Assembly: GCA_963575745.1 (NCBI GenBank)
Contig: CAUYUJ010016064.1
Span: forward strand, 113,501 to 177,500
Origin: Prorocentrum cordatum
Taxonomy: Eukaryota > Sar > Dinophyceae > Prorocentrales > Prorocentraceae
Length of the DNA stretch: 64,000 nt
Reading direction: 5' to 3'
Shown here: piece after piece, positions 50,941 through 61,825 of the stretch
Layout of the letters: each line of letters begins with the position of its first letter
Position numbering within the stretch: the first letter of the stretch is position 1
The notes under the pieces: generated by a model
Told to the model about the DNA's origin: nothing
What the model saw: the letters and a program-made list of their open reading frames with translations, nothing else
Databases searched by the model: none
Program-made: the position numbers and the translations under genes

Positions 50941-51775
50941 CGTCGCACTCGATCGATCTCACTCTCGATATCACTATCGATCTCACTATCGATCTCACAT
51001 TCGGTCTCACGTTCGATCTCACTATCGATCTCCCATTCGGTCTCACTATCGATTTCACTATCGATATCACAATCGATCTCACATTCGGTCTCACTATCGA
51101 TCTCACTATCGATCTCACAGTCGATCTCACATTTGGTCTCACTATCGATCTCACTATCGATATCACAATCGATCTCACATTCGGTCTCACTATCGATCTC
51201 ACTATCGATCTCACTATCGATATCCCATTCGGTCTCACTATCGATTTCACTATCGATATCACAATCGATCTCACATTCGGTCTCACTATCGATCTCACTA
51301 TCGATCTCACAATCGATCTCAAAATCAGTCTCACCATCGATCTCACTATCGATATCACAATCGATCTCACAGTCGGTATCACTATCGATCGCACTATCGA
51401 TCTCACAATCGATCTCACAATCATTTTCACCTTCGGTCTCACTATCGATTTCACTATCGACATCACAATCGATATCACAATCGATCCCACATTCGGTCTC
51501 ACTATCGATATCACTATCGATATCATTATCGATCTCATTCGATCGATCTGACTATCGATCTCACTATCGATCTCACTATCGATCTCACTATCGATCTCAG
51601 ATTCGGTCTCACTATCGATCTCACTATCGATCTCGCAATCGATCTCACAATCAATCTCACATTCGGTCTCACTATCGATTTCACTATCGATCTCACATTC
51701 GGTCTCACAATCGATCTCACATTCGGTCTCACATTCGGTCTCACTACCAATCACAATCGATCTCGCAATCGACGT
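50941..51775. repeat. Dodecamer satellite CTCACTATCGAT, about 69 units, with higher-order structure
   Basis: Units are CTCACTATCGAT, CTCACATTCGGT, CTCACAATCGAT and ATCACAATCGAT. The order of variants repeats: CCCATTCGG lies at about 51032 and 51224, a 192-base spacing (16 units), and the following units match. Period 12 keeps frames open on both strands. ClaI sites (ATCGAT) recur throughout. Confidence 0.95.
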
Positions 51776-53699: not shown

Positions 53700-53852
53700 T
53701 CCTCCCTCCTCCTCCTCCTCCTCCTCCTCCTCCTCTCCTCCTCCTCCTCCCTCCTCCTCCCTCCTCCTCCTCCTCCTCCCCTCCTCCTCCTCCTCCTCCT
53801 CCTCCTCCTCCTCCTCCTCCTCCTCCTCCTCCTCCTCCTCTCTCCTCCTCCT
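53700..53852. repeat. (CTC)n array joined to the LINE 5' end
   Basis: CTCCTCCTC with occasional CTCCCTCC, ending CTCCTCCT directly at the T-CCG of the relict spliced leader. Confidence 0.95.
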
Positions 53853-53896
53853 TCCGTAACCATTTTGGCTCAACTCCGTAGCGGAAGGCTCTGAGG
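53853..53896 (+). other. Relict spliced leader, probably two in tandem
   Basis: 53853-53874 reads T-CCGTAACCATTTTGGCTCAA-C, differing from DinoSL at two positions (G to A, final G to C). At once there follows TCCGTAGC (53875-53882), then GGCTC (53887-53891) and GAG, which aligns with a second, more decayed DinoSL. Tandem relict leaders are known for dinoflagellate genes that went through more than one retroposition round. Confidence 0.82.
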
Positions 53897-55866
53897 ATTT
53901 GAGCGTGGCACGGGGGAGGTGCGCCCCCGCCTGCGATCCCGTGCCCAGCGGCACAGCATACAGTTGTTGTACGACATACCTTACAGTTCTTGCTGGTACT
54001 GTACTGGGGACTGGCCCACGACACGCTACATGCCTCGCCAGAGCAATGTTTCGTCGTCTTACACCACGTGTCTCTCCTGTGGCAATTGGTCTTGGAGCTG
54101 GCGCCTCAAGAGGCAACATGGCGTGTGCGCGGTCTGCAAGACACACCAGACTGGGTTCTCTAAGGATCCCTGGCAACGTTCATCGGATCGGCGTGGGATG
54201 CGGAGTGGCCTGCCTTGCCCTCGGCGCCTGAGCAACCGTCGCAGCTGCTGGAACGTCACCTCACCGCCACTGGCCTGTCCAACGACGCTGGTGCGCTGGC
54301 CTTGGTCAAGCAGGTGGCTGATGCAGCGGAGCGGTCCAAGCCTCAGCCGAAGCCGCAGTGCCCCTACGTCGTGCTCCGCAAGGCGGCTGCCTTGTGCACG
54401 GAGAAGGAGGCCAAGCTGGCCAAGGCGACCAAGGCTCTTCTTGCGGCAGAGGAGTGGTTGGAAGATGGCAAGGCTCGGCAGGCCCAGGCGGCCGAGGAGC
54501 TCTTCGAGGCGGACCAGAATCGCATCGAGGGCCAGCAGGCGACGCTGGCCAAGTCTGGTGACCACGGTGGCAAGGCCCCTGAGTCGGAGTTCGTGTCCTT
54601 CGGCGTCGACATGGCCTTGCTTGAGAACCTTGAGGAGTACGAGGATGAGGGCCGCAAGAAGCTGGAGGAGTTTCAAGTCCAGCTGCAACGAGTCGCCGAG
54701 CAGGCGAAGGCCCGCGAGGCCGAGTTCAAGGAGGTCCTGGCTGCGACCAAGAGGGCCCTGGCGGCGCCTCGCAAGAAGAGGCGCGCCGAAGGCGGGACCA
54801 AGGAGGACGAGGCCGCCGCCATGGGCGAGCTCGACGCGCCACTGCTCTTGGGCAAGGTGCTGCGTCCTCGTCGGCAGCAGGTGGCAAGGGCGCCAATGGC
54901 GGCAAGGGCTCTGCCAAGAGCTGCAAGCTCTCCCCTGAGGAGCGCGCCCGCATGGTCGAGTCCATCCAAGCGTCCGCCCGCCTCTCGGCCATGGAGGCAG
55001 ACGCCGTTCCTCCTCGGGGCTCTGGCGCTGGTGCTGCAGCTGCTGCGCCTGGTCCTCCCAAGGGGCCTCTTTAGTGCTGCTGGGTACTACGCTGCCGAGG
55101 ACGCTAAGGTCTTCTACGGCAACATCACGGAGTGGGGCCCACAGGCCCGACGGTACCTCACGGAGAATTTCTACAAGCATTCGGTGGTAGCGCTGGTTGA
55201 GACCCATCAGGGCAGCGCCTCCATCCCAGATCATGAAGTCCAGTTGGACAAGGATGGCTGGCAGCTGTCCTCTACTCCTGCGAGGCCAAGTGGAAGGTCC
55301 CAGGATGGCTTGAGCGGAGGGGAGTGGATCCTTACCCGCAAGTTTGTTGCCAGCTCGTCATTCCAGCGCATGAGGGCTCAGGCTCGTATGGACGGCAGGC
55401 AGGGCCCATGCAAGGGCTTTGTTCCTCTGGCCCTTCATTTGAGGACTTGGAATGTTGTAGCGATTGCAGCCTACCTCCAGCCTGGGCCCATGGTTCGCGG
55501 CATCAACAATGACATCATGGCCGCCCTCGCCTCCTTCACTCGTGCGTTGGCGGACCCATGGTATGGTGTGTAGTCGCTGATTGGAACTGTGAGCCATCCT
55601 CCTTGTTTCACAGTGGCTGGGTTGAAAAGATGAATGCCAGGTTAGATCGGCCTGATTGCTTGGTCACGTGTGACAAAGGTTCTGGACGGCTCTATGATTT
55701 TGTTCTTGCTAGCAGCTCCTGCCCCACCTTGCAGATTGTTGGTGTTCCGAACGTACCTTGGAAGACGCGCTGTGGATTGAACGTCGCAAGCAAGGGCGCG
55801 CTGGGTCTCTCAGCTCATGGCGCCTCGCAGTTTGCCGTCTACGCCGCGCCACAGGGCGGCCCCTGA
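53897..55866 (+). pseudogene. LINE: zinc finger, coiled coil and APE-type endonuclease
   Basis: Order after the leader: finger CLSCGNWSWSWRLKRQHGVCAVC (54067-54140), a frameshift near 54180, then the frame opening at 54215 with long coiled coils (ALCTEKEAKLAKATKALLAA; KKLEEFQVQLQRVAEQAKA) and a basic RKKRRAEGG. The endonuclease starts near 55100 (VFYGNITEWGPQARRYL), with VALVETHQ holding the metal-binding Glu. After a frameshift near 55560 come VADWNCEP, the Asp/Asn motif, YDFVLAS, and WKTRCGL. The His usual near the end of the domain may be replaced by Arg. This part would nick target DNA to prime reverse transcription. Frameshifts make this copy inactive. Confidence 0.82.
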
Positions 55867-57379
55867 CCCTGGCAGCAAGAGACAGACACGACTGGCGGCT
55901 GCCAAGCGTCGACGGCAGGAGGCTCTTCCTGAGGAGCTTGAGGACGGCTACATGGAGGTTCAGGAGTTGTTTGATCCTGAGCCAGATGCTGCAGCTATAT
56001 TTTTTTGTATCGGAGGAGACCGGGCTTCGCGCGGCAGCGCAGGCTACTCCTTTTGTTGGCATGCCCAAGTGCGCGGAGTCTTGGCGGCAGGCCGCTGATC
56101 GAGGCTTGAATGCTCCACGCCCACCTCCTCGGCTGTCCCGGCCTTTCCGTCGAGGTTTTCTGCCAGGGGGTGCCCCTGCTGCAAGTGCCTCGACTACAGC
56201 GGGCGTGGCCCAGGATGTGCATTCCCTGGGAGGTCGCGGGCCGCCCCTCCATGATGTCGTCGTCGCGCGCGGCGCCCAGCCCCCTGGCCAGGGCGCGGCG
56301 CTGCTGTCCGAGCCGCCGTGCGACCTCAAGCGCCAGGGGGCGGGGCCATTGTCGGGTTCGCATCAAGAAGGAGGGGCCGCCCGAAGCATGCACGCGGGCG
56401 AAGAAGCGGCTGCGTGGTTGTTTGGTGATTCTGCAGGTGCCTCGACTACAGCGGCCGTGGCCCAGGATGTGCATTTCCTGGGGGGTCGCGGGCCGCCCCT
56501 CCAGGAGGTCGTCGTCGCGCGCGGCGCCCAACCCCCTGGCCCGGCCGTGGCACTGCCGTCCGAGCCGCCACGAGACCTCAAGTGCCAGGGGGTGGTGCCA
56601 TTGTCGGATTCGGATCAAGAAGGGGGGGCGGCCCGAAGCATGCGCGCTGATGAAGAAGCGGCTGCGTGGTTGTTTGGTGGTTCTGGGCACTCTATCATTG
56701 GAGGCCCTGCTGTTGCGCGGGCCTCTCCATCGTCCCCACGTTTCTTCCCGATTCAGTCTCGAAATTATCAATGTCAGGAACGAGTTCAAGCTGTTGGGCT
56801 GCCCGCTGAGCACCTGGGCGCGGTCGGCACCGCTGCGCCTGACGGTGCGCTTCAGGTGTCATTTCGGCCAGGTGTACCACTGCATTCGGATTTATCGGAG
56901 TCGGAGGAAGGAGCCGCGCTAACTTCGTCGGCCTTTCTGCAGCGCACGGCTCCCTCTCTCGTCTCTGGCATCGAGGACCAAGCATTGGCGGCCGCAGCGG
57001 CGCGTGCTCGTGCGCACGCTTGGCATTCTCGACCGCGTGATGTCGAAGCTGCTGTGGCGTTTGACGATTATCGTGTTCTTCGTTGGCGGAGTGTTGACCG
57101 CAAAGCAGTATCAGACAGATATGCAGTCTGGGTTGCCACCGTGGAGGAAGCTATTCTAGATGCTGAAGCTGTTGAGGGTCAAGATCGGCACCAATATGTT
57201 GGGCAGGGCAGCGGGCCCTGCGCGTAAGTGGTCAAAACTCAAGGCAGCCCCAGGACGCGCACACATGAATGACTCCTTTGCAGAATGGTGGGGGATCACC
57301 ACTACGTTGCTGGTCAGGTACCGTTGTCTTGCTGTCAATCGATCTGATGCAGGCGTAGTAGTGCGATTTCGTCGGCACC
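55867..57379 (+). pseudogene. LINE: linker between endonuclease and RT with in-frame 252-bp duplication
   Basis: After another shift near 55995, an open plus frame runs to 57227. It contains an Ala/Gly/Pro-rich block present twice: CCTCGACTACAGC starts at 56188 and 56440, a period of 252 bases or 84 codons (AQDVH..LGGRGPPL; EEAAAWLFG). The rest (VEAAVAFDDYRVLRWRSVD) is unassigned. It joins the endonuclease and reverse transcriptase of one polyprotein. Direct function is unknown. Confidence 0.7.
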
Positions 57380-59028
57380 TTGGGACTTTGGACCTTAACC
57401 AGAAGGGCGATTTCTTTGGCAAAAAAGACCTCTATGGAATTGGCGTCAGCTTGGGCGGAGGACGCCAAGTATACTGATGAGTTCGATGAAGAAACTATGG
57501 AGTCTCTCATGGGTCTTGCACATCGAGGGTCAGACTGGGCCTCCTCCCGAGCAATGACAGCCTCTAGAGCGAGCTTTATGGCCTGGATCCGAGAGCAGTG
57601 GCGAACTACGCCAGGCCTTGCCCACCGCCATGTGAAGCCTGATGTTGCTCCTGAGTGGGAAGGCTTGGACCCTGACGGTCACACTACCAGTCACCCACAG
57701 TTGTTGCTAGAGGCAAGCGCAAGTTCTGGAATGGTTTATGGACTGAAGAAGTGGATGCTGAAGCTGGCCTGCATTATTGGATGGAGCTGTTGCATCAGGA
57801 TGCGCTTGAGCAGGGGCTGCCGGCCTTCGAGCTTGAGCAACTTGACGCCACACTCCGTATTCTGCCATCCAACAAGGCTCGAGGAGTGGATATGCTTGGA
57901 CCCAACGGCTTGCTTTGCTTACCAGATGTCGGACGTCGAGATTGTCTTTGCTTGCTCAACGAGGTTGAACGTGCAGGTGTGCGGCCTCAAGAGGTATCTG
58001 CCGTTCTTGGTGCTTCTATCCCGAAAGAGACAGGGGGTCATAGGATTCTGGGACTGCTACCCACCACGGCCAAAGTATGGAGTCGCATGCGCTCTGCCCC
58101 ATCCACGTCCTGGACGCAGAAGCCGGGTGCCCTCTGGGACACGGCGATTGCTGGCTCGTCGGCTCTACGCGCTGCCTTGGCCCGAGCGGTTATGGACGAC
58201 TGTTCCAATGCATTGGGCATATCGTATTCGACTCTATTTTTGGATCTGCAGAAGTTCTATGACTCGGTCAGCCTGGTTCTCCTGATGAAAGCTTGTCGGT
58301 CCCTTCAGTACCCTGCAACCATCACGCTTTTGGAAGTTGGCATGTGCGCGGCACCCCGCTTTGTCAAGAAGGGGCCTTTGATCAGTGCTCCCCTCGAGCC
58401 AGGCAAGTCTGTTGTAGCGGGCTCACCACGAGGGGTGGACACGGCTAGGGTAATGTTGCACGCCCTTCTCCAACAGGCGCATGTTGCCTGTCCAGGGGCT
58501 GGCCTATGGACCTTCATCGATGACACGGTTTGTCGTGCTGAGGGGGTGCGTGCCACTGTGGCTGGCGATCTGAAGGCGGCGGCTGGCTCTCTCTGCAAGT
58601 TCTTCGGCGACCATCGTCTGACGATTTCGGGCAAAACTAAGTTGATTGCGATTGATGGTGGTCTTGGACAGGAACTGGAGGCGACTTTACAAAGCTGGGG
58701 AATACCTGTGTCTTTCGTTCCTGCAGCAGTTGATCTGGGCGTTGATGCAGCAGCGTCCAGTAATCGCGCTCGCACCAAGTTCCGCAGCAGAGTTCGTCGA
58801 GCTACGGCTCGCAGTGCCAAGGTTTCTCGATTGCGCAGGATGGCTGGGGGTCAGAAGGTCGCGAGTGGATTATGGATGACTGGAGTCTTGCCGTCCGCGG
58901 TGTACGGCAATCAGGTCTTCGGTATCCCTCCTACCATCATCACCACCCTGCGCAGACAGGCCTCATCAGCTATCGCGGGTCCGGAACGGGGTCGTTGTTT
59001 GCAGACAGTGTTGCACCGAGCATCCTGA
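57380..59028 (+). pseudogene. LINE: reverse transcriptase domain
   Basis: A frame from 57380 (FMAWIREQWRTTPGLAHRH) gives way by frameshift near 57720 to one ending at 59028. It has the RT order: ILPSNKARGVDMLGP, a variant of the PK-x-GG segment (IPKETGGHRILGLL), LFLDLQKFYDSV (motif A with catalytic Asp, about 58235-58270), AGSPRGVDTARVML (motif B), TFIDDTV (motif C, FIDD, about 58510-58530), KTKLIA and LGVDAA. All catalytic Asp residues are present. The enzyme copies the element RNA at the nicked target. Confidence 0.9.
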
Positions 59029-60776
59029 GGGTGACCAGCTCGGCCATGGAGCTGATGTCCCCCCAGTACATCGCGAGCTGGAGGCCTTCGCCAAACGTGG
59101 CGACATGGACCTCTGGAGCGCTACGCTGGCGGCGGTCTCAGGCGGCCAGTGGACGCAGCAGAGGCAAGCCGACCAGGGCTACGAGGTGGGCTTGGCCTTC
59201 CCGAGGCGCGGCGCCTCGCCTGAGACGCTGCGCCACCGCGTGTGGGAGTGTGCCAAAACTTGCGGGCACGCGGATTACTCTTCAAATGATGTTTTGATCA
59301 CGCAGGCTCTGGCTTCTGCAGATGCTGAGCCTGCTCTGTGGTCACGTGTCCCCCCCCCCCCCCCAGTGAGCCTCACGGTGCTTAGGATGCTGGAGGGGCC
59401 CGATTTTTCCGAGCCCTTTTTCCCGGGCCAAGTTCGGCCCCTGGACCTCCGCGCGGCCCTTGACGGGCCTCCCCTGTACATCTTCGGGGGCGGCTCAGGG
59501 GGAGAGCACAGCTCTGATGAGAGACGGCGTAGGTGTGGAGCTGCAGTGGTGGTCATCCGCAGAGCCTCAGAAGGGGCCCCGTTGGTGCCTGGTGGGTCCC
59601 CGTCTGTGGCGTGGCCGCCTGCCTCCCTGGACGCCGCCAGACTGCGCCCCGCTCCGAGATCCCTCGCGACCGGGCTCGAGAATTCCCGTGGAGATGTCGC
59701 TTATGTTTGCGATTGTAAGCCTGTGGTTGATGGCTGGAGGTCAGGCCGTGCTGCTCACCCCCGAGGGAAGAATGCTGACCTCTGGACTCGTGTGAAGAAG
59801 GCCGCTGAGGACCGAGGTCCTGGATGGGGACTCGGTAGTGTGGACGGCTTCGCATTTGGAGGCTGAGCCAGAGCGTCTTACCTCTCCCTTCCAAGCCTTC
59901 CTCTCCCACGGCAATGCTTGCGCGGATGCTTGGGCGGGTTGGGCGGCGAGGGCGGGGTGGGATGCTTCCGTGTGCAAGCCGGTGCCAGCGACTGACCGTT
60001 GGGATGCCACTTCCTTCCTCATTCGTAGACTGGCTCGGAGAGCCCTGATCGAAGCGCTTGCGGTTGCTCCAGAGTTTGGCACGGGGCCCCACAAGTATCG
60101 CCAGAAGCCGCAGTCTCAGTTGCAGCGTGCCCTTGAAGCTACCAGTCATCGGTTCAAGCCTTGCGGTAATCTTTGGACGTGTTCCTTATGTCAGACCATC
60201 GTTCCTAGGTCTAAGTTGATTGCAGCAGCGAGCTCTGTATGCCCTGCTGCTCTCGCCGCTCGGCCTGGCCCTGCCTCTCCTCCTTCGGATGCTTTGGTCC
60301 CTGGTCCGACCTCGCGGTTCCGCGGTGAAGGAATTGTGCCTGTGGTCGGGCGTTCTGAGGTCGGAGGGGTACTTCTGCGCCCGAGCCACTCCCTCCAGGA
60401 GCGGAAGAAATACGGTCTGAAATTATGCGCGGTTTGTGGTTTCACTGCCGCCGTGAGCGGAAGGCAGCTCAGCAAGCCGTGCACTTTGCCGCTCGTGAAT
60501 GGAGCCCCTCGTCCGTCTCGGAAAGGGGTTGAGAACCTTGCTCGCATCAGGAAGGGCACTTTTCCTTCCCATCGTGGCGTCCCGATTGCTATCCAGGAAG
60601 CTGCGGCGGAGGCAGAGACCTCTGCTGCTGCGGCTGCTGTCTCGGGAGTTCCCTGCCCTCGCTCGCCCGTCCCTGTGCAGTTGGGCGAATGCGCGAGGTT
60701 TCAGGAGCCCCCCCCATCCTGTTTTGCGTGCCCCCTCGCCCCCAACTGTGGGCTCTGGAGGGGAGGTCGGTGGTGA
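59029..60776 (+). pseudogene. LINE: RNase H-like domain and C-terminal zinc fingers
   Basis: The frame 59105-59866 carries an RNase H-like region: YIFGGGSGGEHSSDERRRRCG (first Asp region, altered from the usual DGS), then VAYVCDCKPVVDGWRSG with a central Asp and NADLWTRVKKA. A one-base shift near 59850 leads to VWTASHLEAE, GNACADAWAGWAA and then two fingers, WTCSLCQTIVP (about 60172) and LKLCAVCGFTAA (about 60418), followed by LARIRKGTFPSH. It closes with a stop at 60774-60776. The finger plus basic tail is the same layout as the 3' fragment at 20656-21440. The first catalytic Asp seems lost. Confidence 0.78.
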
Positions 60777-61070
60777 GGAGGCCTGGAGGGGAAAAGGGTT
60801 GGGGGCGACGTCGTCTGTCGCGGTGGCAGGAGCGGTCGGCGGGGAGAGAGCGAGGAGGGGGAGTGCCCCCCCGCGCCGCCGCCCCGCCGCCGCCCCGCGA
60901 CGGCGGCCTGCGTCTTCAACACCAGGCGCGCCGCCCCCCCCCCCCCCCCACACACGCCGACGTAGAGCGGCACGTGCGTGCACTTACTCACCATACTCAC
61001 CATACTCTCTCCTCCTTCTCCTCCCTCCTCCTCCTGCTCCTCGTCCTCCTCCTCCTCGGGTCGCCTGCGG
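60777..61070 (+). other. LINE 3' end with tandem nonamer, joined to TCC repeats
   Basis: After the stop codon about 200 bases of GC-rich 3' UTR, with a long C run at 60933-60949, lead to ACTCACCAT twice (60986-60994 and 60995-61003) plus ACTC. Then TCTCCTCCTTCTCC begins and continues as TCC repeats to about 61055. There is no poly(A). I take 61003-61007 as the LINE end. Confidence 0.65.
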
Positions 61071-61499
61071 CCCCGTGGGAAACCGTGCGCCCCAGACCCC
61101 TTTCGGGCAACGAAAACATCATGGCGGGAGGTTTTTCGCTATGTTCGGCCACCGGGGGGCCCTCGCCGGGCTTCGGGGCCGTCAGAGAACGACTCGGGGC
61201 GAGAAGCCGGTCCCGGGGAATGGGTCCGTCGAGAAGTCTGGGGGTCGACGCACAGCCGGCCCAGATTAGTAGGATCGACCCTGCCAAACCAAGGGTACCG
61301 TTGTGTCCTGTGTCTCGCGACCCATGCTTCCTACAATCCCGCGGCACTGCGGCCCTCGGCAGGGTATTGTGTCCCTTCGCGTGTCCTGTCCAATCGAGCC
61401 CGCCTGTAATGAACAAGTCATGACGTCGGGGGCCTGGGTCCGACTGCCAGCGCCACGGCAGAGATCGCGTCGGCGGCCTTCTCCCTGGCACTTCCCTCG
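61071..61499. other. No gene recognised
   Basis: Frames on both strands show no motifs. Confidence 0.5.
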
Positions 61500-61710
61500 A
61501 TGAAGAGACAACGCGGCACAAACATAATTATTTGGCGCTCCGCGCGGATTTCCTGGGTCTGCGCTGGCCCCCCCCCAGCGGCACCTCTGGCACAGCCCCT
61601 GGCGCGCTCCGCGCGCAAGTGGGGGGGGGGGGCAGCGCGGATCCAAGCAGTCCGCGCGGAACGCCACAAGTTTTTGCTTATGCAGTTTTTTCGCGTTCGA
61701 TTTCCTTCGT
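61500..61710. mobile_element. Foldback MITE related to family A
   Basis: Arms of about 60 bp: GGCACAAACATAATTATTTG-GCGCTCCGCGCGGATTT...GCGCTGGCCCCCC on the left, and TGCATAAGCAAAAACTTGTG-GCGTTCCGCGCGGACTG...GCGCTGCCCCCC on the right, reversed. CCGCGCGGAT, GCGCTGG and the inner GGCGCGC...GCGCG palindrome match 52303-52496, so it is a diverged relative. Exact ends and target duplication are unclear. Confidence 0.75.
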
Positions 61711-61825
61711 GGCGATCGAAAGGGGCACGACAAGGATGGGGGCGAAGACCGGCTGCAGTTCATGCTCATTTTGAACCGGGGTCGCGGTCGTTGCAGCCAC
61801 GAACGGCGTCCATTCGAGACAAAAT

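Follow-up and report, generated by a model that had tools for sequence, protein, structure and literature searches.

Several LINE lineages in the genome of Prorocentrum cordatum have very probably been copied from trans-spliced mRNA, mostly into (TCC)n/(GGA)n microsatellites. The copy described here lies in a window of 64,000 nucleotides (the whole stretch of DNA analysed; assembly GCA_963575745.1, contig CAUYUJ010016064.1, positions 113,501 to 177,500), to which all coordinates below refer. The placement of the host spliced leader, DinoSL, at the start of a LINE is not peculiar to this copy.

In the window, a (TCC)n microsatellite identified by Tandem Repeats Finder (53700..53852, + strand), which forms the 5′ flank and presumed insertion target, abuts a DinoSL copy, TCCGTAACCATTTTGGCTCAAC (53853..53874, +), without a gap. 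This DinoSL-like 22-mer with two mismatches was present exactly where an earlier note, made from the sequence of this DNA, had reported it, directly after the microsatellite. It was the sole match to the DinoSL 21-mer at ≤3 mismatches in the 64-kb window, and no such match occurred in 100 shuffles of the window. Its bases are the first of a decayed LINE of 7.15 kb (53853..about 61004, +), whose 5′ end is common to the family copies, and are followed by an old, second leader-like unit, TCCGTAGCGGAAGGCTCTGAGG (53875..53896, +), conserved in the window's family. The frames of the LINE are broken, so the window copy is dead. Its conserved 3′ region (60728..61004, +), common to other copies, ends in CACCATACTCACCATA(CTC), and homology stops at about 61004-61010, where TCC resumes as the 3′ flanking tract (61005..61057, +). 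The window locus is also copied on another contig (L049/L050; C15215, C5985) with >99% identity including the flanks and differing (TCC)n arrays, and represents a recent duplication or an unmerged haplotype.

The LINE that the earlier note had described at the leader was recovered with its finger, endonuclease, reverse transcriptase (RT) and RNase H regions, the endonuclease being the weakest; the element extends to about 61004, beyond the 53700..53900 to which it had been assigned. The finger region, of the CxxC type (54048..54164, +), resembled ORF1 of a related copy, L015 (phmmer, E 1.5e-5). The RT (57688..59014, +) matched the open ORF of L015 (phmmer, E 2e-50) and was the only domain that Pfam alone detected on the window LINE, at a level under the cut-off (RVT_1, E 1.9e-5). 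The RNase H region (59009..59816, +) likewise matched L015 (phmmer, E 7e-18), and Pfam RNase_H was found at cut-off in L019. By tblastn, the APE-type endonuclease region (55091..55785, +) matched L026 (E 3e-22), L027 (7e-9) and L019 (6e-6). Its phmmer match to L015 reached 7e-4 only and is weak, since an unrelated minus-strand match (61421-61759) scored 1e-4 in that run, a measure of its noise.

Scanning 19 ORFs from 11 loci with Pfam revealed LINE domains in L009, L011 (weak), L018, L019 and L023; Exo_endo_phos scored above the cut-off in L009 and L023 and just under it in L018. Stop-free ORFs of 1,998 and 1,997 codons were found in L015 and L019, respectively, and in a protein search the L015 RT gave four matches, two of them named Prorocentrum cordatum at 27% identity. 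With an RT, an APE-type endonuclease, the optional RNase H and a target-site duplication that was clear in 4/9 copies, these elements are non-LTR retrotransposons. When L051, L052, L057 and L063 were scanned with Rfam for known RNAs, including a ribozyme at the 5′ end, seven matches came up; all fell under their gathering scores and none was a ribozyme. Between the endonuclease and RT regions, the window LINE carries a tandem pair of 252-base units that are 89% alike (56179-56685). The open ORF2 frame of L015 (19-6015 on the minus strand) continues back across the leader, where CCATTTTGGCTCAAG reads PFWLK, and its first Met is residue 49. A short copy on contig C11079 (L051 and L094) retains the LINE 5′ and 3′ ends with most of the middle absent, and is possibly a non-autonomous derivative.

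The 5′ ends of family copies were aligned, a test that the earlier note had named beforehand. The first 848 bases of the window LINE, used as the query, returned 45 matches, and 30 loci were extracted from these. L058, L064, L067, L070 and L075-L078 could be aligned solely via the leader-adjacent stretch and were therefore excluded from the count. Among the remaining 22 rows, L050 (near-identical to the window locus) and L054 (the same copy as L055) were dropped, leaving 20. A leader at ≤2 mismatches was present in 19 of these 20 family loci; the sole exception, L069, had no leader and counts against our explanation. When only loci matched through the inner part of the query were considered, 13/14 had DinoSL at the 5′ end, the outcome that the earlier note had anticipated. 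Because L056 and L060 represent a single locus that has been duplicated (94% across 2.8 kb spanning flank and LINE), the independent counts are 18/19 and 12/13. Eight further copies picked by their 3′ end lent weak support: two were N, four had no LINE 5′ region where one was predicted, and both informative copies carried the leader. Conserved LINE sequence upstream of the leader, which the earlier note had named as refuting its reading, did not appear in the upstream flanks of 29 leader-bearing loci, which had no common sequence reaching the leader except in three duplicated or identical pairs (L049/L050, L054/L055 and L056/L060). A few short stretches common to some of these flanks were located away from the leader. 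The leader is the 5′ end of a reverse-transcribed LINE RNA that had probably been trans-spliced.

We searched the whole assembly (4.13 Gb, 21,875 contigs) for DinoSL. Exact 21-mers occurred 14,218 times, in comparison to 0 for the reversed control, and allowing ≤2 mismatches gave 33,832 occurrences versus 9 for the reversed pattern. Published DinoSL counts for two Symbiodinium genomes are far lower, at 496 and 244 (PMC8045281). The identical 22-base leader precedes several different 5′ regions. In 20 long DinoSL loci, up to 6 kb downstream of each leader was compared with 17 ORFs from the same loci plus the window, with same-locus matches dropped. Sense-strand LINE protein matches (E 1e-5 or better) were found in 15/20 loci, with a single query behind the match in L010, L012, L023 and L024, and antisense matches in 0/20. 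A DinoSL before a gene model may therefore signal a LINE rather than a retrogene.

The association with microsatellites was apparent at both ends of the elements. On the reverse strand, to which this count was confined (one listed row per leader), 2,645 of the 7,017 exact leaders had TCCTCCTCC no more than 20 bases upstream; downstream of the leader it occurred at 2/14,218. The 50 bases upstream of 48 exact leaders, taken by contig from the start of the list, were TCC-rich in 21 cases, GGA-rich in 11 and another microsatellite in two, with none detected by score in 14 (L012, L015, L021 and L024 being borderline). The background of 50-base pieces passing these scores in the window was 0.7% for TCC and 4.9% for GGA, and none of the pieces downstream of the first 28 leaders passed the TCC/GGA score. 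At the other end, TCC followed the LINE 3′ end in 11/20 copies, in comparison to 4/20 at the distal end of the stretches in question. It was absent or weak in 9/20 (L095 is N; L080, L086, L087, L091, L093 and L096-L098 score below), and these, together with the 14/48 leaders without a scored microsatellite, count against our explanation. The LINEs thus target microsatellites as a preference that is not strict, L019 and others being located elsewhere.

The array is taken to be the insertion target because TCC is also found at the 3′ end in 11/20 copies, because L027 lies between (GGA)n arrays and because other copies lie beside other microsatellites. On the same grounds, microhomology between the TCCG start of the leader and the TCC repeat, which the earlier note had suggested may have helped at the junction, is not the explanation. 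The other microsatellites adjoining leaders, in L031, L044, L065 and L076, were (TA)n, (CAT)n, (CAC)n and (CA)n. The non-microsatellite upstream flanks of L025 and L042 were alike by eye and are perhaps a second kind of target. Also by eye, in the 48-locus sample the GGATACC-type 5′ region occurred beside TCC and the AACG..GATTAG type (L011, L012, L030, L035) beside a GGA or GGA-like tract; such a family-wise split, seen in small numbers, would agree with families that differ in the strand they nick.

Target duplications were sought in nine copies with both flanks by comparing the bases before the leader with those after the LINE 3′ end, using 119 slid end points as the control. Duplications beating all 119 slid ends were found in four of the nine: L019 (16 bases), L015 (15), C13406 (15) and C19911 (14). 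The L019 duplication is non-repetitive and comes after the A run in which this LINE ends; those of the other three consist of array sequence that ends at the leader. As the clear duplications end at the leader, the inserted cDNA starts with it in these cases. However, in 5/9 copies the duplication was indistinguishable from chance in repetitive flanks, which counts against our explanation. Among these, C14618 (17 bases) was indistinct because its flank repeats the duplicated unit (13/119 slid ends equal), and C13734 (13 bases), C5936 (12), C11079 (10) and C14410 (none) were likewise indistinct. The window copy has a weak candidate for a 12-base duplication, CTCTCTCCTCCT, with its 5′ copy three bases before the leader (53838..53849, +) and its 3′ copy in the first 12 bases of the 3′ TCC tract. 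With the three bases skipped 0/119 slid ends equalled it, unskipped it shortens to 8 bases (34/119 equal), and in a looser test 94/123 slid ends reached 12.

In the available portion of one report on dinoflagellates, trans-splicing that uses the AG within the leader itself is recognised by a full leader with a relict from nt 8 onwards behind it (PMC3229502). Within the 48 sampled loci, such relicts stood behind a full leader in nine, a full-length second unit was present in four, and 35 had no recognisable relict. Relicts from nt 8 also occurred within single families (L059, L076 and L078; L107). Both the leader with which the retrocopy starts and the nt-8 tandem relict in 9/48 loci are hallmarks of mRNA recycling. 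The second unit of the window is of the full-length kind, not an nt-8 relict. In ungapped comparisons with DinoSL, the second unit differed at 4/22 positions in L019 and L038, 9 in L041, 10 in the window's family and 12 in L028, against a background of 1,222 22-mers differing from DinoSL by at least 11. An ancient leader, family-wide and much decayed in the window's family, is the most plausible reading of the unit. The two leaders had been taken in the earlier note to mean at least two rounds for the window copy; this must be withdrawn, as the unit is ancient and common to the whole family, and even its best versions (L019, L038) are four bases off.

That note had further proposed that LINE RNA is trans-spliced and reverse transcribed to its very 5′ end. 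The leader does come first in the insert, and we infer the trans-splicing from the exact 22 bases, the different 5′ regions behind them and the nt-8 relicts. The leader may instead have become fixed in the LINE DNA anciently and been passed on as ordinary 5′ UTR, with no fresh trans-splicing per round. This agrees with the divergence in the window's family, which is about equal for leader (0.040) and UTR (0.045-0.049) and counts against our own explanation, and with the commonest state being a single leader immediately followed by the same UTR (the 35/48 loci above). We nevertheless consider inheritance unlikely, as different 5′ regions are found behind an identical 22-base leader, exact nt-8 relicts recur both across the sample and inside single families, and in a second family (9 copies) the leader is less diverged (0.011) than the next bases (0.061 and 0.022).

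A splice acceptor needs a pyrimidine tract before its AG. Upstream TCC is commoner than GGA (21 to 11), and (TCC)n might accordingly be a tract that was selected, or grew later, and enabled trans-splicing, rather than a target. That bias is not significant (p = 0.11), TCC also stands at the 3′ end in 11/20 copies (versus 4/20 at the far end), L027 sits between (GGA)n arrays, and the array-sequence duplications of L015, C13406 and C19911 end at the leader, all of which make this account quite improbable. Leaders are abundant enough (33,832 at ≤2 mismatches) for a LINE to have landed by chance beside a leader or retrogene, the two being separate insertions. This can hardly be entertained given that family copies share the leader start base in different flanks, and that duplications in L019, L015, C13406 and C19911 stop at the leader rather than beyond it.

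These findings are consistent with a trans-spliced LINE RNA that is inserted into simple repeats by target-primed reverse transcription. The host would add DinoSL to the LINE transcript by trans-splicing, after which the LINE endonuclease, reverse transcriptase and RNase H would act at a nicked target, with the cDNA running through the leader to the 5′ end of the RNA. Landing would occur mostly inside (TCC)n or (GGA)n and leave duplications of ~14-16 bases. Copying through the leader into repeats would explain why full copies start with the 22-base leader, often between microsatellite flanks. In the next round, the leader's own AG might serve as the acceptor and (TCC)n as the pyrimidine tract, a guess in view of the TCC to GGA ratio. 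A broader proposal, rather doubtful at present, is that trans-splicing is regular in LINE replication: insertion into (TCC)n would supply the pyrimidine tract and the leader AG would renew the 5′ end, replacing an element-borne one, and mRNA recycling in dinoflagellates would be the work of these LINE enzymes as well.

In 2008, Slamovits and Keeling reportedly described the recycling of dinoflagellate mRNA, marked by relict DinoSL. In this process, as set out in the accessible parts of three reports, trans-spliced RNA returns to the genome with its leader and relicts start at nt 8 (PMC3229502, PMC6050394, PMC12014239); the enzyme responsible is called unknown in the portion available of one (PMC6050394) and left open in that of another (PMC12014239). 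The copies described in those portions are of host genes, whereas here a LINE encoding such an enzyme is copied and lands mostly in TCC/GGA microsatellites. A further source, again in part, suggests LINEs as helpers of viral gene insertion near leaders (PMC10235124). If our reading is true, the LINE machinery offers a direct candidate for the enzyme that gives rise to dinoflagellate relict leaders.

Elements of the R1 clade and Tx1 are examples of target-specific, including microsatellite-targeting, non-LTR retrotransposons. Going by the sections available (PMC5035012), such elements likewise combine LINE coding with simple-repeat insertion and short target duplications, but the 5′ end of the LINEs described here is a host spliced leader. 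In Schistosoma, the accessible text reports six cases of SL-bearing elements, whose authors suggest trans-spliced, retro-transcribed elements and concede possible assembly chimeras (PMC5832876), and for Hydra the part available gives SL on transposable elements from RNA reads only (PMC12220107). In contrast to both, as far as those parts go, the association here is systematic in genomic copies and comes with target duplications. The trypanosomatid LINE L1Tc also resides in a trans-splicing host, but its RNA is unspliced, arises from the Pr77 promoter and has a 5′ ribozyme (PMC8190864). In the literature searched, with most subscription journals outside its coverage, no earlier report of LINEs starting with DinoSL was found. 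SLACS and CZAR, likewise LINEs of trans-splicing trypanosomatid hosts, insert into SL RNA genes. An element of this type was considered and rejected, as the leader is inside the insert in L019 and leads into the LINE 5′ region. The LINEs described here would be selfish elements that take their 5′ end from the host splicing system and their landing site from a simple repeat.

Upstream of the LINE, the window also contains an array of the 12-base unit ATCGATCTCACT (50952-51772), which has a higher-order period of 96 bases and is open in several frames.
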